Assembly: GCA_020432165.1 (NCBI GenBank)
Contig: JAGQGU010000011.1
Location: 53,684 to 100,422, forward strand
Direction of reading: 5' to 3'
Origin: Thermomicrobiales bacterium
GTDB lineage: Bacteria; Chloroflexota; Chloroflexia; Thermomicrobiales; UBA6265
DNA length: 46,739 nt
The position numbers and the translations under genes are program-made. Of the stretch, positions 13,712-46,739 are shown one piece after another (position 1 is the first letter of the stretch; each line of letters opens with the position of its first letter). A model generated the notes under the pieces. It saw nothing but the letters and a program-made list of their open reading frames with translations, was not told where the DNA came from and made no database searches.

Positions 13712-16700
13712 ATGGCGCGACTTGAAGACATCGTGACGGGCTCAAGAATCGAAGGCATCGATCCGCACGGACCGGTTGAGATCGAAAGCGCGAAGTGGTT
13801 CGGATCCGATGTTCTCGATATCATGTATCGCGATTCTCAGGGCCAACCGCGTGATCGTATGCTCTACCGTCATGATGAGCCATTACTTCGCGTTCTCGGC
13901 GAAAGCCGTCGCTGGAGTTTTGATGCTGACCCTGCACTAACGCGTCTGGCGGCGGAAGCCCAGCGAATACGACTCGCCTACAATTTCGATCCTCATCTCG
14001 CTATCCATAGCTCCGATGTCGATCCTTTGCCACACCAGATCACTGCCGTTTACGAATCAATGTTGTCGCGTCAGCCAATGCGTTACCTTCTAGCGGATGA
14101 TCCCGGTGCTGGTAAAACAGTCATGACAGGGCTCTTCATGAAAGAACTCTACCTTCGCGGAGATCTCGAGCGGTGTATGATCGTCTGCCCCGGAAGTCTT
14201 GCCGAACAGTGGCAGGATGAGTTGGATCAGAAATTTGGACTCTCTTTCGAAATCTTCACAAACGATCAGGCAGAAGCATCTCGCACCGGCAATTGGTTCT
14301 CTGAGCACGACATGGTCATTTGCCGACTCGACCAGTTGAGTAGGAACGAGGTTCTCCAGGAGCAACTGGAGCAGACCGATTGGGATCTTATTGTCGTAGA
14401 TGAAGCGCATAAAATGTCGGCCTCATATTATGGTGACGAGTTGAAGAAGACTCGTCGGTATCAACTGGGTGAGAAGCTCGGTGGACTAACCAGGCACTTC
14501 CTCCTACTCAGCGCTACCCCTCACAACGGGAAAGAGGCCGACTTTCAATTGTTCATGGCGCTCCTGGATGGTGATCGGTTTGAGGGTAAGTACCGTGAGG
14601 CAGTTCACACGCAGAAGGCCGATGACCTCATGCGAAGAATGGTCAAGGAGCAGCTGGTACAGATGGACGGCAGGCCGCTCTTTCCAGAGCGATTTGCCTA
14701 CACCGTACCCTATGCGCTTTCCGACAAAGAGGCGGTTCTCTACGAAGCTGTGTCCGAATATGTTCGTGATGGATTCAACCGAGCTGATTCTATTGAGGAT
14801 GGGAATCGCAAGAATAATGTTGGATTTGCGCTCACTGTGCTTCAGCGACGAGTTGCTTCCTCACCCGAGGCTATCTATCAATCTCTCGTGCGACGTCACG
14901 ACAGGCTGAAAACGAGGCTCGACGAGGAGCGCATCAATCGGCAAGCGGGCGATTTCCGTTTGCAACAGCTGGAAACCACGTCCGAGGAAGACCTCGACGA
15001 AATCGACGAAGGATTGGCAACCGACTTCGAAGATCAAGAGGATTCATTGGCAGATCGATCGACCGCGTCGATGACGCTACGAGAGCTCGAGGCAGAGATC
15101 ACTGTGCTGGAAGGCCTGGTGCAACTTTCTGACGAGGTGCGTAAGAGCGGGCAGGATCGTAAGTGGGAAGAACTCTCCTCCATTCTGCAGGAACGAGTGC
15201 CGGAGAAGGAGGAGACTCCTGCCAATCGGAAACTGGTCATCTTTACCGAGCATCGCGACACGCTCAACTACCTTCACAAGAAGATTGCGAATCTGACTGG
15301 GAAGCCAGAAACCATCGTGTCCATTACGGGTGGCATGAGCCGAGATGAGCGCCGCAAGGCTCAGGAGGCATTCACGCAAGACAAAACGGTGCAGATCCTG
15401 CTAGCCACTGATGCTGCGGGTGAGGGAATCAACTTGCAGCGTGCCCACCTGATGGTGAACTACGACCTCCCCTGGAACCCTAATCGACTCGAACAGCGTT
15501 TTGGCCGCATCCATCGAATTGGTCAACGCGAAGTCTGCCACCTATGGAACTTGGTTGCGCACGAAACTCGCGAAGGCGCGGTTTACCGTACATTGCTGGG
15601 CAAACTGGAGCAAGAACGAGAAGCCCTCGGTGGCAAAGTGTTCGATGTTCTTGGATCTATAAAATTCGGCGAGAACCAAACGTTACGAGATCTCCTTGTT
15701 GAAGCCATGCGATACGGAGACCAGGCCGATGTGAAACAGCGTCTCGACAAGGTGATAGAGGGCTCGGTCAACACGGAATCTCTCCAGCGATTGCTCAGCG
15801 AGAATGCACTTCACGGCTCAATACCGGCGATTGATGTCCAGGAGATCGCTGAGGCTATGGAGCGAGCTAATGCTCGCAGATTGCAGCCTCACTACATCTC
15901 ATCCTTTTTTCGGGAAGCGTTCACGCTTCTCGGAGGCAGGCTCAAGGATCGAGAAGCGGGCCGGTTCGAGATCAGCCATGTACCGGGAATCCTCCGCCAG
16001 AGAGGCCGGCTTATGGGCCGGGGTGCGGCACTGCTCGATCGCTACGAGCGCATCACGTTCGATCGTCAATATCGATACGTAGATGGTCGACCCAGTGCGC
16101 AATTCGTGACACCAGGTCATCCGTTGCTGGACACTGTTATTGACGTAGTGCTGGAACGCCATCGCATGCTGTTGCAGCAGGGCACGGTGCTCGTAGATGC
16201 CGAATCCACATCCAACACACCTCGCGTGCTTTACCTGATGGAACACGAAATCGTAGATGGCCGAACTAATCGCAATGGAGACCCGTTGACGGTCTCCAAA
16301 CGCATGCAGTTTGTTGAACTTGGCGCAGACGGAGCAATCCGAGATGCAGGACCAGCCCCATACCTAGATTACGAAGCACCGGTAGATGAGGTCTCCGAGG
16401 AGATAGCCAACATTTTGCACGATGAATGGCCCTCCAAGGATCTTCATCAGGAAGCTATCAGTCATGCCATTAGCACCGTTGCCCCTATGCACCTGCTGGA
16501 CGTGAAGCAACGAACAGACAGGCTCATCGATCGCACACTCAGCGCCGTTCACGAGCGCCTCACACATGAGATTCAGTATTGGGACCATAGATACGTCACG
16601 TTGGCGGAGGATGAATCTCGCGGCAAAAAGAAGCGTGTTACTGCCGAGGGGGCCAAAAGACGACGAGATGATCTCCAACGTCGGTTGGAAGAGCGCACGC

Positions 16701-34872: not shown

Positions 34873-35364
34873 ATGGTGCAATCGGGTAACCACATGCGGA
34901 GATTCTTGTGGTTGCTGTCGCTGATACTCGGTATCGCGCTGGCCGATCAATTGGTTAAGCGATGGATGGTCGAGCTCATCGGACCATCGGCCAGCCAGCA
35001 TCGCATTGAATTGCTCGGTAGCTTCGTGGCGCTTGAGTATTTGCAGAATACTGGCGCCGCCTTCGGTATGTTCCGGGATGCGACGACGCTCTTCGCTATC
35101 GTCGCGGTGGTGGCAATCGGTGTTGGGCTCTTCCTGGTCTGGCGAGAGGCGGCATCCGATTGGCCGCTCGCATTCGGTATCAGCTTCATCATCGGTGGGG
35201 CGCTCGGGAATGTGATCGATCGCATCGTGCGCGGCTACGTGGTTGATTTCGTTGCTATCGGTCGTTTCTGGAAGTTCAATCTTGCCGATAGTTGCATCAC
35301 GCTTGGTGTACTCTTCGTGTTCTGGCTCCTGTGGCGAGCCGACAATCAGGAATCAGATACATGA
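34873..35364 (+). CDS. lspA: Lipoprotein signal peptidase II
   Basis: 163 aa, four membrane segments, with the two catalytic aspartates in GNVIDRIVRGYVVDF and FNLADSCI, and the conserved NTGAAFGMF. It cleaves the signal peptide of diacylated prolipoproteins. ATG 34873 is very close to GGGAGG; GTG 34876 is an alternative. First gene of an overlapping operon with rluD (ATGA overlap), a glycerate kinase and a nucleoside hydrolase. Confidence 0.95.
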   Translation: MVQSGNHMRRFLWLLSLILGIALADQLVKRWMVELIGPSASQHRIELLGSFVALEYLQNTGAAFGMFRDATTLFAIVAVVAIGVGLFLVWREAASDWPLAFGISFIIGGALGNVIDRIVRGYVVDFVAIGRFWKFNLADSCITLGVLFVFWLLWRADNQESDT

Positions 35365-41166: not shown

Positions 41167-43677
41167 GTGACAGATTACGAAAACACCAACCCAGATCCGG
41201 TTGAGGAAGAAGTGACCGCCGAGGAGACCGTTATCGAGCAACTTGATGCGGCTCCGGTCGAAGAGATCATTCCATTGTTGCCATTGAAGGCGACCGTTAT
41301 CCTCCCGCATACGCTGGTGCCGCTGGCTGCCGCTCAGGAACGATCGCTCAAGCTGATCGACTCGGTCATGCAGGGCGATCGCCTGGTCGCGATGGTGATG
41401 CAGAAGGACGACGAGCAGGATAACGCTGGTCCGGACGATATCCTTTCCATTGGCTCCGTGGCGACTATTCACCAAATGATGCGCGTGCCTGACGGCACCA
41501 TGCGTCTGGCCGTACAGGGCCTGGAGCGCATGGAGATCCTCGAGGTGGTGGAAGAACAACCATTCCTCAAGGCGCGCGTTCGCCGTACACCGGAGATCGC
41601 TGAGGAATCCGTCGAGATCCAGGCATTGGCGCGCAACGCACATGAGCTCTTCGAGCGTGCTGTTGGTTTGGTTCAGCATCTGCCGGACGAACTCCTCATT
41701 GCCAGCATGAATGCGCTCGATGATCCTGTGCATTTGGCCTATCTCATCGCCTCGAATCTCCGTATGGAGCCGAGTGAGCGTCAGCATGTGCTGGAGGTGA
41801 CCGATGTCGCCGAGAAGCTGAAGTACCTCATCACCTATCTGACCAAGGAGCTGGAGGTGCTCGAACTCGGGCGCAAGATCCAGTCCGATGTCCAGGAGGA
41901 GATGGGCAAGAGCCAACGCGAATACTTCCTGCGGGAGCAGATGAAGGCGATTCAGCGTGAGCTCGGTGAGAGCAACGACCAGGAAGCCGAGATCAACGAT
42001 CTGCGCGAGCAGATCAGCAACAGTGGCATGAGCGATGAAGCGCGCAAGGAAGCCGAGCGTGAACTCGATCGCCTGAGCAAGCTGCCGCCGGCCGCCGCCG
42101 AATACGGCGTGATCAAGACCTACCTCGATTGGTTGGTGAGTCTGCCATGGGGTAAGACCACCGAGGAGCCGATCGATATTCAGCGCACACGTGCGATCCT
42201 GAATGAGGATCACTACGGGCTGGAGAAGATCAAGGATCGTATCCTGGAATACCTGGCTGTGCGCAAGCTGAAGCAGGATCAGGCAGCCGAGAACGGCGAT
42301 GACACCGCCATTAACCGCGAACCGATCCTCGTCTTTGTCGGACCTCCGGGTGTCGGTAAGACCAGTCTGGCACAGAGTATTGCCCGTGCGCTCGGTCGGG
42401 AACTCACCCGAATGAGCCTTGGTGGTGTGCGTGATGAGAGCGAGATTCGCGGTCATCGGCGCACCTATGTCGGGGCCATGCCTGGTCGCATCATTCAGGC
42501 TATCCGCCGCGCTGGTACCAGTGATCCCGTCTTTGTACTGGACGAAGTGGATAAGCTCGGCAACGATTGGCGTGGCGATCCATCGTCGGCATTGCTGGAA
42601 GTGCTTGATCCCGAGCAGAACGGTGACTTCCGCGATCACTACCTGGATGTGCCCTTCGATCTGAGCAAGGTGATGTTCATCGCCACCGCGAATATGTTAG
42701 ATACGATTCCGGCACCATTACGCGACCGCATGGAGATCGTTGAACTCAGCAGTTACACGGATGACGACAAGCTGCAGATTGCGAAGCGCTATCTTGTGCC
42801 GAAGCAGATGAAGGCAAACGGCCTGGCTGGTCGCGAGATTGAGTGGGACGATGATGCGCTGCTGGCGATCATACAGCACTACACGCGCGAGGCTGGTGTT
42901 CGTAACCTTGAGCGTGAGATCGGTTCGGCCGCGCGCAAGCTCGCGACCCGCGTGGCCGAAGGAGTGGATGTACCCCAGCACATCACCACGGTTGAGATTC
43001 GTGAATTCCTCGGCCGCCCCCGCTTCTTCTATGAGGAGTTGGAGCAGCGGACATCACAACCCGGTGTCTCCATCGGTGTTGGTGTCAATGCCTTCGGCGG
43101 CGACATCATGTTCATCGAGGCAACGAAGATGCCCGGTAAGGGTGGCATGATCGTGACCGGTCAGCTTGGCGATGTGATGAAGGAGTCAGCGCAGGCAGCC
43201 TTTAGCTTCGTGCGTAGCCGTGCGGCCGAGCTGGGGATTGATCCCGATTTCTACAAGGAATCGGATATCCATATCCACGTTCCCGCCGGCGCTGTGCCTA
43301 AGGATGGCCCGAGCGCAGGTGTCGCGATCACGACAGCGCTGGTCTCACTCCTGGCGGGCGTGCCGGTGCGTGGCGATGTCGCGATGACAGGCGAGTTCAC
43401 GCTGCGGGGTCAGGTACTGCCTGTCGGCGGCATCAAGGAGAAGGCGCTGGGTGCGCTCCGTGCAGGCTGCACCACATTCATCCTGCCGAAGCGCAACGAG
43501 GTCGATCTCGACGATCTGCCAGAGGAAGTGCGCGATGCCATGACCTTCGTTCTGGCCGATACGCTGGATGATGCCCTGGCTGTAAGCATGCCGGAGGAGT
43601 TCCACAATCTTCGCTCGGGTGCGCACAGCGGCGAATCCGCATCGACCGAACCGGTGGCACCAGCCGCGGTCGCGTAA
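41167..43677 (+). CDS. lon: ATP-dependent Lon protease
   Basis: 836 aa, typical LonA size. N-terminal substrate domain (IPLLPLKATVILPHTLVPLA), AAA+ module with Walker A GPPGVGKTSLAQS and Walker B FVLDEVDKLG, and the Ser-Lys protease with PKDGPSAGVAIT (catalytic Ser) and GGIKEKALGA (catalytic Lys). Degrades misfolded and regulatory proteins. GTG start with AGGAG upstream. The last 90 nt, encoding FHNLRSGAHSGESAS and onward, recur imperfectly at 44668-44757. Confidence 0.96.
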   Translation: MTDYENTNPDPVEEEVTAEETVIEQLDAAPVEEIIPLLPLKATVILPHTLVPLAAAQERSLKLIDSVMQGDRLVAMVMQKDDEQDNAGPDDILSIGSVATIHQMMRVPDGTMRLAVQGLERMEILEVVEEQPFLKARVRRTPEIAEESVEIQALARNAHELFERAVGLVQHLPDELLIASMNALDDPVHLAYLIASNLRMEPSERQHVLEVTDVAEKLKYLITYLTKELEVLELGRKIQSDVQEEMGKSQREYFLREQMKAIQRELGESNDQEAEINDLREQISNSGMSDEARKEAERELDRLSKLPPAAAEYGVIKTYLDWLVSLPWGKTTEEPIDIQRTRAILNEDHYGLEKIKDRILEYLAVRKLKQDQAAENGDDTAINREPILVFVGPPGVGKTSLAQSIARALGRELTRMSLGGVRDESEIRGHRRTYVGAMPGRIIQAIRRAGTSDPVFVLDEVDKLGNDWRGDPSSALLEVLDPEQNGDFRDHYLDVPFDLSKVMFIATANMLDTIPAPLRDRMEIVELSSYTDDDKLQIAKRYLVPKQMKANGLAGREIEWDDDALLAIIQHYTREAGVRNLEREIGSAARKLATRVAEGVDVPQHITTVEIREFLGRPRFFYEELEQRTSQPGVSIGVGVNAFGGDIMFIEATKMPGKGGMIVTGQLGDVMKESAQAAFSFVRSRAAELGIDPDFYKESDIHIHVPAGAVPKDGPSAGVAITTALVSLLAGVPVRGDVAMTGEFTLRGQVLPVGGIKEKALGALRAGCTTFILPKRNEVDLDDLPEEVRDAMTFVLADTLDDALAVSMPEEFHNLRSGAHSGESASTEPVAPAAVA
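43588..43677 (+). repeat. Direct repeat, copy 1: 3' end of lon
   Basis: 90 nt, identical at 82 positions to 44668-44757. This copy is the real C-terminal coding end of lon, stop TAA. Confidence 0.9.
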
Positions 43678-43701
43678 CCTGTAAGCAATACCAAACGTAC
43701 T

Positions 43702-43733
43702 AACGCGTCCATCAAGCAATTGGTGGGCGCGTT
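43702..43733 (+). terminator. Hairpin after lon
   Basis: AACGCGTCCA / TGGGCGCGTT, a 10-bp stem with one G-U pair and 12-nt loop, but no T tract follows. May be a weak or factor-dependent terminator. Confidence 0.4.
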
Positions 43734-43777
43734 CTGCTGCATAAGGAACTATCGATTTCTCAATATGTCGGAAAAAC

Positions 43778-43807
43778 TTGACGTGTCGGAATAATCCGAC
43801 ATATAAT
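43778..43807 (+). promoter_or_regulatory. arsR promoter with operator filling the spacer
   Basis: TTGACG (43778-43783) and TATAAT (43802-43807) are 18 nt apart, and the spacer is exactly the perfect palindrome TGTCGGA-ATAA-TCCGACA (43784-43801). A further half-site TGTCGGA lies 18 nt upstream at 43766-43772. Strong case for autorepression. The ATG is 6 nt past the -10 box, so the message should be leaderless. Confidence 0.8.
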
Positions 43808-43813
43808 GAGGCC

Positions 43814-44149
43814 ATGGCAAACGACGTATTTGGCGCGATGTCTAATCCAATCCGCCGTCAGATCCTGGTTTCATTGCGGGAAGGTCCGAGTTCCGTCAAC
43901 GATCTTGCGAGTATGTTCGAGTTGGGTCGGCCGGCTATCTCGGAGCACCTTCAGATTCTGCGCACGGTAGGACTCGTCCGCGAAGAACCTCGTGGTCGCC
44001 AGCGCTTTTATCACCTTGTGCCAGAACCGTTGAGAGAGATCGATCAGTGGCTCGGTCTGTTCCAGAGTGTCTGGCGTGGGAGATTCGATGCGATGTCGGA
44101 CGTCCTTGCTGAAGAAACCAGAAATGCGCAACCGCAACAAGGAGAATGA
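43814..44149 (+). CDS. ArsR-family transcriptional regulator
   Basis: 111 aa winged helix (MSNPIRRQILVSLREGPSSV, LASMFELGRPAISEHLQILR, LVREEPRGRQRFYHLVPEPL). No CxC metal motif, so it belongs to the non-metal group commonly paired with AHSA1 (SRPBCC) proteins. ATG 43814 is the only start compatible with its promoter. It overlaps nothing and lies 3 nt before the AHSA1 gene. Flanked by two copies of the lon 3' end. Confidence 0.9.
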   Translation: MANDVFGAMSNPIRRQILVSLREGPSSVNDLASMFELGRPAISEHLQILRTVGLVREEPRGRQRFYHLVPEPLREIDQWLGLFQSVWRGRFDAMSDVLAEETRNAQPQQGE

Positions 44150-44152
44150 GGT

Positions 44153-44563
44153 ATGGCTGACGTACGTACACTGACATTTGATCAGGTGATTTCATTCCCG
44201 CCAGAAGAGGTTTGGCGCGCACTGACAGAACCACAACTGCTTGCACGATGGTGGGCACCGGGTGATATTCGGCCCGTTATCGGTCACAAATTCACTTTGG
44301 ATATGGGGGCGTGGGGAGTTCGCGACTGCGAGGTTCTTGCTGTCAAGGAATATGAGCTCCTCCAGTACTCCTTCTCTGGTGGGGGACTCGATACGGTTAT
44401 CTCCTGGCGTTTGGTTCAAGAAGAAGGTGGTACTCATCTATTCCTTGAGCACTCCGGATTCGATTTCGATACAGAGATCGGCGAGACCGCGTTCAAGGGG
44501 ATGGGATCCGGTTGGCCCACCGTTTTGGGACGGATCAGCGATGTGCTGGTTACGACGGGCTAG
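44153..44563 (+). CDS. SRPBCC/AHSA1-family protein
   Basis: 136 aa START-like fold: TFDQVISFPPEEVWRALTEP, LARWWAPGD, ISWRLVQEEGGTHLFLEHSG and GWPTVLGRISDVL. A hydrophobic pocket may bind a lipid or small ligand; function unknown. Co-transcribed with the ArsR gene, a very common bacterial pairing. GGAG lies upstream of ATG 44153. Confidence 0.88.
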   Translation: MADVRTLTFDQVISFPPEEVWRALTEPQLLARWWAPGDIRPVIGHKFTLDMGAWGVRDCEVLAVKEYELLQYSFSGGGLDTVISWRLVQEEGGTHLFLEHSGFDFDTEIGETAFKGMGSGWPTVLGRISDVLVTTG

Positions 44564-44667
44564 CGCCTAGATTTCGAGACACACGAGTTGGGTGATTCGA
44601 GTGATCTCTCCAACTGCTACTGCGGTGGTTGGTGTTGGCATTGACTCGGCAGGATCTTGCGGTGAGG

Positions 44668-44757
44668 ATGCCGCAGGAGTTCCATGATCTCCGCTTGGGT
44701 GCGCACAGCGGCGAGTCCGCATCGACCGAACCGGTGGCACCAGCCGCGGTAGCGTAG
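44668..44757 (+). repeat. Direct repeat, copy 2: displaced lon 3' end
   Basis: 82 of 90 nt match 43588-43677; it would encode MPQEFHDLRLGAHSGESAS and the same VAPAAVA end, then TAG. No start or upstream lon sequence is present, so it is a scar and not a gene. Offset between copies is 1080 nt. Confidence 0.9.
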
Positions 44758-44817
44758 TCAGCTTCGAGCCCGATGAGTTGACCGCGACCATTACGTTGAC
44801 CCTTGTGGCACCCAAAC

Positions 44818-44862
44818 AAGAGCGAGCCCGACACCCGATGAATAAGTGTCGGACTCGCTCTT
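44818..44862. terminator. Bidirectional terminator
   Basis: AGAGCGAG-C-CCGACAC / GTGTCGG-A-CTCGCTCT long stem with 11-nt loop, followed by TTTC on the plus strand and TTGTTT on the minus strand. It separates the ArsR/AHSA1 unit from the convergent amidotransferase pair. Confidence 0.8.
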
Positions 44863-44884
44863 TCATGTATAGATAGATGAACTT

Positions 44885-45619
44885 TTACCTGTTGGCGTAA
44901 TCCTTCGCTGCTGTCACAAAGCCATCGAATAGCGCCTGTTGTTCGGCATGTTGGGCGGCCAGCCGCTCTGGATGCCATTGTGTTCCGAGCGCGAAGGTAG
45001 CATCCGGTGCGTAGACGGCCTCGATAATGCCATCGTCACCGCGCGCAACCACCTTAAGAGAATCAGGCACTGTCCCCAGCGCTTGATGATGGAACGAGTT
45101 GATCTGAATCTCGCCACTACCCAGTGCTTTCGCCACGGGATTCTCCCCATCGTCAAGCACCGCTTGCTGGAAGATATCGTGTTCACCCGCACCTTCCGCG
45201 CGCTGGTTGTGCTTCTTCGTGGAATCCGTCTGGGAAGGGATATCCTGAACGAGGTCACCACCGCGTTCCACATTCATCACCTGAATACCTCGGCAAATTG
45301 CCAGGATCGGCATGTCGCGTGCGAACGCAGCGCGCATGAGCGCTATCTCGAAGGTATCGCGTTCGGCATCAATACCGCCCGTCGTCTCGTGCGTCTCCTG
45401 GTTGAAGATCCCGGGATCGATATCGCCACCACCGCTAAAGAGGACGCCGTCCAGCGTATCCAGCAGGGCATCGATTTCGGTAATATGCAGCGGCAGAATG
45501 ACCGGGATCCCGCCAGCTCGCTGCACTGCCATCGTGTAGTCGGCCGCGATCGCATAGGCACGGACACCGAGATCGTTATCGCCGCCGCTAGGGGTCACAC
45601 CGATGATGGGTGCATTCAT
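44885..45619 (-). CDS. Class-I glutamine amidotransferase-like hydrolase (peptidase C26, PuuD-like) 1
   Basis: 244 aa. SGGGDIDPGIF, nucleophile Cys in LAICRGIQVMN, and His/Glu in GTQWHPERL, the PuuD/gamma-glutamyl-GABA hydrolase layout; NSFHHQAL is typical. Likely cleaves gamma-glutamyl amides. Its ATG overlaps the stop of its paralogue (ATGA, 45616-45619), so the two are co-translated. Confidence 0.88.
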   Translation of the reverse strand: MNAPIIGVTPSGGDNDLGVRAYAIAADYTMAVQRAGGIPVILPLHITEIDALLDTLDGVLFSGGGDIDPGIFNQETHETTGGIDAERDTFEIALMRAAFARDMPILAICRGIQVMNVERGGDLVQDIPSQTDSTKKHNQRAEGAGEHDIFQQAVLDDGENPVAKALGSGEIQINSFHHQALGTVPDSLKVVARGDDGIIEAVYAPDATFALGTQWHPERLAAQHAEQQALFDGFVTAAKDYANR

Positions 45620-46368
45620 GAGTTCACCTCTGATTCGTGATGCTTCTCGCTCGCTTCTACCAGTGATCTGAAGATAGCAGCGTGTTCATCGTACTTATGT
45701 GCGAGCAGCTCCGGGTGCCACTGCACCGCCATCCCCCAACTGATACCGGGATGCCAAACAGCTTCGACAAGACCATCTTCCGCGGTAGCGATTGCCTGCA
45801 GATCGCTTGCCAGCTTGTCGATTCCCTGATGATGGAATGAGTTCACTTCCATCGTGCCATTGTCGGCAATCTCCTTTAGAGGATGTTCGCCGGGAGCAAT
45901 TGTCACGCTATGGAAGCGTTCTTCTGCGTGAACGCCCAGGCTTTGCTGGCGGTGTTCCGCAGGATCTGGCTTGAGATCTTCGACATCCTGATAGAGTGTG
46001 CCGCCGAGACCCACATTGAACATCTGCAGACCTCGGCAAATGCCCAGAATAGGCATATCCCGCGCTATTGCAGATTTGAGCACCATTTGCTCGAAAGCGT
46101 CACGCTCGGAATCAATCTCATCGGTCTTGGGATGTTGATCCTGTTCGTATTCTGCCGGATTGATATCGCCGCCACCAGTGATCACCACCCCATCAAGTCG
46201 ATCCAGCATGGCATCGGCGTCATCGAAGTTGCTCGGCAACATCACCGGGATGCCTCCAGCAGCTGCAATCGCACGCGAGTAATGATCGGAAAGGGTGTGC
46301 CGACGGAATGTACCGTGCGGCATATTGAGTAGTTCCGGTGTCGGCGTCAGGCCGATGAGTGGTTTCAC
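45616..46368 (-). CDS. Class-I glutamine amidotransferase-like hydrolase (peptidase C26, PuuD-like) 2
   Basis: 250 aa, paralogue of the following gene: TGGGDINPAEY, ILGICRGLQMFNVGLGG with the nucleophile Cys, NSFHHQGI and AVQWHPELL. GTG 46368 with AGGAG upstream. A minus-strand TATACT near 46410 may be its -10 box. Two tandem copies with different specificity segments suggest separate substrates or a heterodimer (inference). Confidence 0.88.
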   Translation of the reverse strand: MKPLIGLTPTPELLNMPHGTFRRHTLSDHYSRAIAAAGGIPVMLPSNFDDADAMLDRLDGVVITGGGDINPAEYEQDQHPKTDEIDSERDAFEQMVLKSAIARDMPILGICRGLQMFNVGLGGTLYQDVEDLKPDPAEHRQQSLGVHAEERFHSVTIAPGEHPLKEIADNGTMEVNSFHHQGIDKLASDLQAIATAEDGLVEAVWHPGISWGMAVQWHPELLAHKYDEHAAIFRSLVEASEKHHESEVNS

Positions 46369-46490
46369 GCTGGTTCTCCTGTACAGGTATTTCTACGCAC
46401 TTTTCGGCAGTATAGGGGAGAGTTTCCGACGTGGAAAGGAGCGGGTTTGATGCCGTAAAAACGAATATGGAAATTGGCCCCCAAAATCCC

Positions 46491-46519
46491 TTGACATCCG
46501 TTTTGGGGACACGTAGTAT
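46491..46519 (+). promoter_or_regulatory. Strong promoter P1 at window end
   Basis: Consensus TTGACA (46491-46496), 17-nt spacer, TAGTAT (46514-46519). The start point would be about 46526. Confidence 0.75.
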
Positions 46520-46592
46520 TTCCCTCGTTGCCCCGGAGACGGGGCGGCAAAACGGGTCTCGGGAGACGAGGCAGATGAGTCTGAAAAGCCTC

Positions 46593-46622
46593 TTGACGGC
46601 CCGGAAATGGATGTGCTACGAT
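46593..46622 (+). promoter_or_regulatory. Strong promoter P2 at window end
   Basis: TTGACG (46593-46598), 18-nt spacer, TACGAT (46617-46622), 102 nt after P1. No convincing protein gene or complete RNA gene follows before the window ends; 46623-46739 looks like a structured leader, as in front of rRNA or tRNA operons. Confidence 0.6.
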
Positions 46623-46739
46623 GTACATCCGCCGCTGGTGAAAGCCACGCGGCAAGAGATGCGACAGTGACGTCGTTCTGCAATGAACGCAACTGAGCGG
46701 GGGCTTCGGCCTCGTGGCATCTCTCGCCCTAGTGATGGG

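Follow-up and report, generated by a model that had tools for sequence, protein, structure and literature searches.

In a 46,739-nucleotide (nt) stretch of the genome of a Thermomicrobiales bacterium (hereafter the window), the intact lon gene, encoding endopeptidase La, is followed by a small operon of an ArsR-type repressor gene and an AHSA1-family gene, and then by a second copy of the lon 3' end without a gene body. We consider it fairly likely, though far from certain, that DNA from a relative recombined into lon and the resident lon end was displaced downstream, where it persists as a scar. On this reading, the locus records a gene acquisition of a type already known, although the gene affected is an unusual one.

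The lon gene (41167-43677; all features are on the plus strand unless stated otherwise) encodes an intact protein of 836 amino acids (TIGR00763, 924.7 bits at a cut-off of 608; Pfam Lon_C, LON_substr_bdg and AAA). Its last 102 nt, in frame and ending with the stop codon (43576-43677, copy 1), recur as an orphan end at 44656-44757 (copy 2). The repeat itself is real: 43576-43676 and 44656-44756 are identical at 90 of 101 nt in direct orientation (blastn within the window, E = 5.7e-34). An initial sequence-only reading had reported 82 identities over 90 nt (43588-43677 and 44668-44757) in the same orientation and 1080 nt apart; this was borne out, the spacing being measured from start to start, and the match extends leftwards to 43576/44656. 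The right limit of homology is the lon stop codon, TAA in copy 1 and TAG in copy 2. No third copy was found in the own 3.2 Mb assembly, where the next-best match is 21 nt long (E = 0.4). The claim of the same reading that the second copy has no lon upstream also held, as the 92-nt spacer before copy 2 (44564-44655) aligns to the upstream lon no better than shuffled sequences do (P = 0.37 and 0.86); a lon-like reading farther left of copy 2, suggested by eye, was ruled out by the same comparison. At this locus, lon has both its body and an intact 3' end, and behind it comes a further lon 3' end that lacks a body. As functional RNA elements, the copies fold no better than shuffles (z = -0.26 and -0.25), and there were no Rfam matches in 43000-46739.

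In the sister species (genome G003, locus L009), 12 nt separate lon from a bidirectional terminator, beyond which lie two convergent Peptidase C26 genes. This is the order seen to the right of copy 2 in the window, where a gamma-glutamyl-GABA hydrolase-like Peptidase C26 gene lies on the minus strand (44885-45619; PF07722, 210.7 bits) as the convergent ancestral right neighbour; hence the sister species has the empty arrangement. As the sequence-only reading had proposed, we compared the lon downstream region in relatives, using 31 lon loci (12 of one set of 80 and 19 of another 20, own locus excluded). Of these, 28 were distinct, 26 having at least 500 nt downstream and two 33 nt or less. A convergent Peptidase C26 gene was observed downstream of lon in 20 of the 28 distinct loci (within 1000 nt in 18), and an ArsR/AHSA1 match or a second lon end in none of them. 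The possibility that both copies are common to all relatives, which that reading had named as the sign of an old local duplication, can thus be set aside.

When region 43000-44880 was used as the query of a DNA search, 39 of the 40 other relatives matched, and every match listed was confined to the lon part. Against 400 genomes of the phylum, and leaving aside the own genome, the matches to the cassette (43678-44563) were all short and came from four genomes; those to region 44564-44880 came from 14 genomes and were no more than 22 to 45 nt long. The insert is absent from both the distinct lon loci and the other relatives, and, judging by these comparisons, the insertion looks private to this lineage, within what could be searched. 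The G+C content at third codon positions is 55% in the ArsR and AHSA1 genes and 70% in lon. The sliding identity of lon to its sister-species counterpart has no clear breakpoint except at the variable ends.

Behind each lon end lies a separate terminator-type hairpin, which fits the expectation for two separate lon loci. Behind copy 1, 24 nt past the lon stop codon, there is a hairpin with a 14-bp stem (43702-43733; fold z = -4.5, its stability reached by none of 200 shuffles, no T-run), a candidate terminator for the 3' end that lon now carries. The hairpin behind copy 2 (44818-44862; z = -4.0) is of the bidirectional type and occupies the position of the terminator between lon and Peptidase C26 in the empty site. 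Copy 2, not copy 1, adjoins the terminator in the ancestral position, and hence copy 1 probably arrived with the cassette, copy 2 being the displaced resident end; this is the more natural, if unproven, direction.

The two copies differ at 12 positions if the stop codon is counted, and eight of these differences are synonymous, compared with the expected 28% (P = 0.006). The C-terminal peptides are alike except for four residues, the DNA being 89% identical, and the lon C-terminal tail is very variable among species. Recombination with the lon end of a related strain, one of the two explanations offered by the sequence-only reading, is favoured over duplication, because the sister species has an empty site, the structure is seen in none of the 28 distinct loci, and the differences show a synonymous excess. 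Import followed by displacement would account for an insertion private to this lineage and for divergence that is mainly synonymous; it would also account for the presence of two hairpins and for the location of copy 2 next to the ancestral terminator.

The incoming DNA would have comprised the relative's lon 3' end, its terminator hairpin and the ArsR-AHSA1 operon. The left joint would have been formed by homologous recombination inside lon with the reading frame kept, and the right joint, just within the resident lon end, with no clear homology; before copy 2, at the end of the spacer, where the apparently non-homologous junction is placed, there is no lon-like sequence above chance. Alternatively, the fragment might have been circularised and entered by a single crossover in the shared tail. 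In either case lon would have remained intact, using copy 1, and the resident end would have moved downstream by 1080 nt while keeping its former neighbours, the terminator and the convergent Peptidase C26 gene. Copy 2 would now be non-coding, a scar within the 3' untranslated part of the ArsR-AHSA1 message, presumably without function.

C-terminal displacement is known from polymorphic toxin loci. It has been described for rhs loci (Jackson 2009, PMC2935791), where an intact gene that has gained a new 3' end precedes its old end, now detached and lacking a gene body, as at lon. Unlike rhs, lon encodes a housekeeping protease, its two ends are largely alike rather than different, exchangeable tips, and there is no toxin or immunity gene. 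The displaced end does lie beside the ancestral downstream flank, as shown by the empty site and the terminator position. In Vibrio cholerae, type VI effector genes undergo sequential displacement by homology-facilitated illegitimate recombination, in which homologous recombination takes place at an upstream anchor, no homology is needed for joining the far end, and the old 3' end is shifted back (Kirchberger 2017, PMC5361080; a similar case is outlined in PMC9711863). A left homology anchor, a non-homologous right end and the downstream shift of the old 3' end with its flank would be common to those loci and ours, but the cargo here is an ArsR-AHSA1 operon, and the mechanism is deduced from the structure only. 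Integration of a circularised fragment by a single crossover has been reported for Escherichia coli conjugation (Amarir-Bouhram 2011, PMC3240628); direct repeats of the shared segment would flank the insert in that case as well, although the circle required here is hypothetical and would be of about 1.1 kb. Among the papers listed on partial duplication, displacement or recombination there was no such case, and a search on lon/ArsR in Chloroflexi yielded nothing, although we do not claim that none exists.

Direct repeats were also scanned in 817,329 nt and later in 1,258,526 nt of the own genome (G000), and in parts of two other genomes; the recurrence of such orphans speaks for import at lon. 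In the portion of the own genome covered, we accepted one additional case: a gene on C105, judged from its sequence to be of the Gfo/Idh/MocA type, has a 3' end (C105:33676-33809) with an orphan at 34895-35028 (134 nt, 94% identity, ending at the stop codon), and seven of the eight differences are synonymous. This orphan (in L154:12591-15860 = G000:C105:32591-35860) lies behind a presumably NYN-like gene and adjoins a REP-type transposase-like open reading frame (ORF). A hairpin-like element is repeated before the NYN-like gene (L154:13825-13921 and 14011-14095), and is single in the sister species. The sister species has a case of its own (L223:8368-10607 = G003:C50:28368-30607), where the 3' part of a gene, presumably glycosidase-like, recurs about 2 kb farther on as an orphan of 87% identity, next to a conserved transporter-like gene; of the 35 differences, 21 are synonymous and 14 are not (P = 3e-5). 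In the own genome, other genes but no orphan lie between the counterparts of these two genes. One repeat filter missed this case, which was picked up by a separate scan. No gene-end orphan was found in the 400,000 nt scanned of G038.

Several other candidates were rejected. A two-copy 155-nt repeat on C21 (G000:C21:87966-88119 and 93133-93287; 98% identity, 5.2 kb apart) is probably non-coding, and was not counted as a third own-genome case, as it overlaps only a 117-amino-acid ORF of doubtful reality. A 46-nt repeat on C64 (L264) and a match at C50:79229 of the sister species passed the filter and were dismissed on inspection, the latter as antisense-looking; the C9:71690 match was dismissed as antisense to a longer repeat-bearing ORF, and tandem paralogues (e.g. 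C76:3684/4373) were set aside as ordinary.

That gene-end displacement is a general route of small-operon uptake in this lineage, anchored in the conserved 3' ends of ordinary genes, keeping those genes whole and leaving a datable scar, seems to us rather doubtful. Were it general, orphaned 3' ends might serve to detect and date small horizontal insertions at loci other than those of toxins. If import and displacement at lon are real, a housekeeping gene joins the polymorphic toxin loci at which C-terminal displacement is known, and the signature of displacement, an orphan, coding-like 3' end that ends at the stop codon and lies downstream of the gene in the same orientation, could be scanned for in any genome when looking for small foreign insertions. 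Even so, the lon-end scar would be a modest and largely ordinary record of gene transfer.

Several observations weigh against import followed by displacement. The sequence-only reading had proposed to look for genomes whose lon end is closer to copy 2; neither such a genome nor a donor was found among the 400 genomes of the phylum and 41 relatives, so we can only infer the foreign origin. The divergence between the copies is uneven: the left 41 nt contain nine differences (78% identity) and the last 60 nt only two (97% identity; P = 0.0065, for a split chosen after looking at the data). The lon tail of the sister species cannot be aligned to either copy in the C-terminal region. Taken together, the near-identical tail and the unalignable sister tail imply either that the copies come from very near lineages or that the tail was homogenised; this identity pattern is not predicted by one simple import. 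The uneven divergence might reflect recombination of one end with the other, or a later event in which a different allele replaced the left part of lon.

With the sister species as the outgroup, of nine lon differences two fall on the copy 1 branch, four on that of copy 2, and three could not be placed. The changes on the copy 2 branch are two synonymous and two nonsynonymous, and hence the lon orphan alone gives no sign of coding evolution. When the three loci are pooled, the orphan branches carry 12 synonymous changes of 22, the other 10 being nonsynonymous (P = 0.008), which suggests, weakly owing to the distant outgroups, that the orphans may have spent part of their history as coding ends; this excess could be inflated by parallel changes in the distant outgroup. 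Besides, if half of the changes occurred in the constrained copy, the 15 of 20 synonymous differences at the lon and Gfo-type loci together are unremarkable (P = 0.13). Finally, the counterpart of the C105 locus in the sister species consists of a Gfo-type gene, a hairpin-like element and an NYN-like gene, with no second end. As the NYN-like gene follows the Gfo-type gene there too, the stretch between the C105 copies is not simply an insert.

Some of these observations would be natural if the lon end had been duplicated locally, that is, copied to a place behind the cassette (or behind lon, if the cassette arrived later), both copies then diverging, copy 1 under selection for Lon and copy 2 freely. 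Such duplication, the other explanation of the sequence-only reading, is possible but clearly the less likely of its two; that reading took the differences between the copies as evidence against a recent tandem duplication. A local origin agrees with the lineage-specific tail that is common to both copies and found in no other examined species, with the lack of a donor, and with the even-split calculation above, by which a part of the synonymous excess is expected from changes in the constrained copy. On the other hand, the divergence of the left part (9 of 41 nt) is about the between-species level, each copy has a separate hairpin, and the stop codon is where the repeated segment ends, a limit for which a random local duplication would have no preference.

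The import could also have gone in the opposite direction. If the resident arrangement was lon-ArsR-AHSA1, and the lon end of a cassette-free relative, with its Peptidase C26 side, was joined illegitimately behind AHSA1, then copy 2 and the right flank would be the foreign part. The final structure would be the same; the orphan has the ancestral right flank, as it would if it came from a cassette-free donor, and copy 1 agrees with the outgroup at four of the six polarised lon sites. However, two events are required, and we regard this variant as improbable, while no sequence available here distinguishes it from import of copy 1.

Wrong joining of metagenomic strains during assembly is very unlikely. 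The assembly has 105 contigs and 3.34% contamination, but the two lon ends are 1080 nt apart within a single 100 kb contig. A graph error at the 35 nt that they share would presumably swap paths rather than put both copies around the cassette, and there are further cases in the own genome and in the sister species. Least credible is a decayed integrative element that targets and restores the lon 3' end, with the repeats as attL and attR: direct repeats at a gene 3' end do flank an insert and leave the gene intact, but between the copies there are only the ArsR and AHSA1 genes and no recombinase or other mobility gene, repeats of 89% identity that differ at synonymous sites do not resemble an att core, and no match to a mobile carrier was found in plasmid or phage records, the exact 35-nt pattern also being absent from the viral contigs searched.

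The gene content of the cassette is ordinary. The first gene (43814-44149) encodes a winged helix-turn-helix repressor of the ArsR family (111 amino acids; PF01022, 51.5 bits, above its cut-off; NF033788, 80.6 bits at a cut-off of 55) whose translation contains no cysteine, and thus no cysteine metal site; such a site is not present in all ArsR/SmtB members. The second (44153-44563) encodes an AHSA1-family protein (136 amino acids; PF08327, 61.2 bits at a cut-off of 22.1). The ArsR-AHSA1 pair is scattered in the phylum: AHSA1 matches were observed in 11 of 301 phylum genomes and in two of 32 family genomes, the own one included in both counts. Outside the own genome, ArsR adjoins AHSA1 at 8 of 11 loci, the same adjacency as here; the present pair differs by its placement behind lon and by the lack of cysteine.

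A candidate ArsR operator (43766-43801) consists of a half site TGTCGGA (43766-43772) and a perfect 7-4-7 palindrome TGTCGGA-N4-TCCGACA (43784-43801; no mismatches, the only match in the window), which overlaps a predicted near-consensus promoter TTGACG-18-TATAAT (43778-43807). Of the single autoregulated unit described in the sequence-only reading, the two genes are plausible, and autorepression is a fair guess from the palindrome over the predicted promoter. The predicted -10 box stops 6 nt ahead of the ArsR start codon (43802-43816), and hence the ArsR-AHSA1 message may be leaderless. Further to the right, two adjacent gamma-glutamyl-GABA hydrolase-like Peptidase C26 paralogues occupy 44885-46368, a tandem that is retained in the sister species too.

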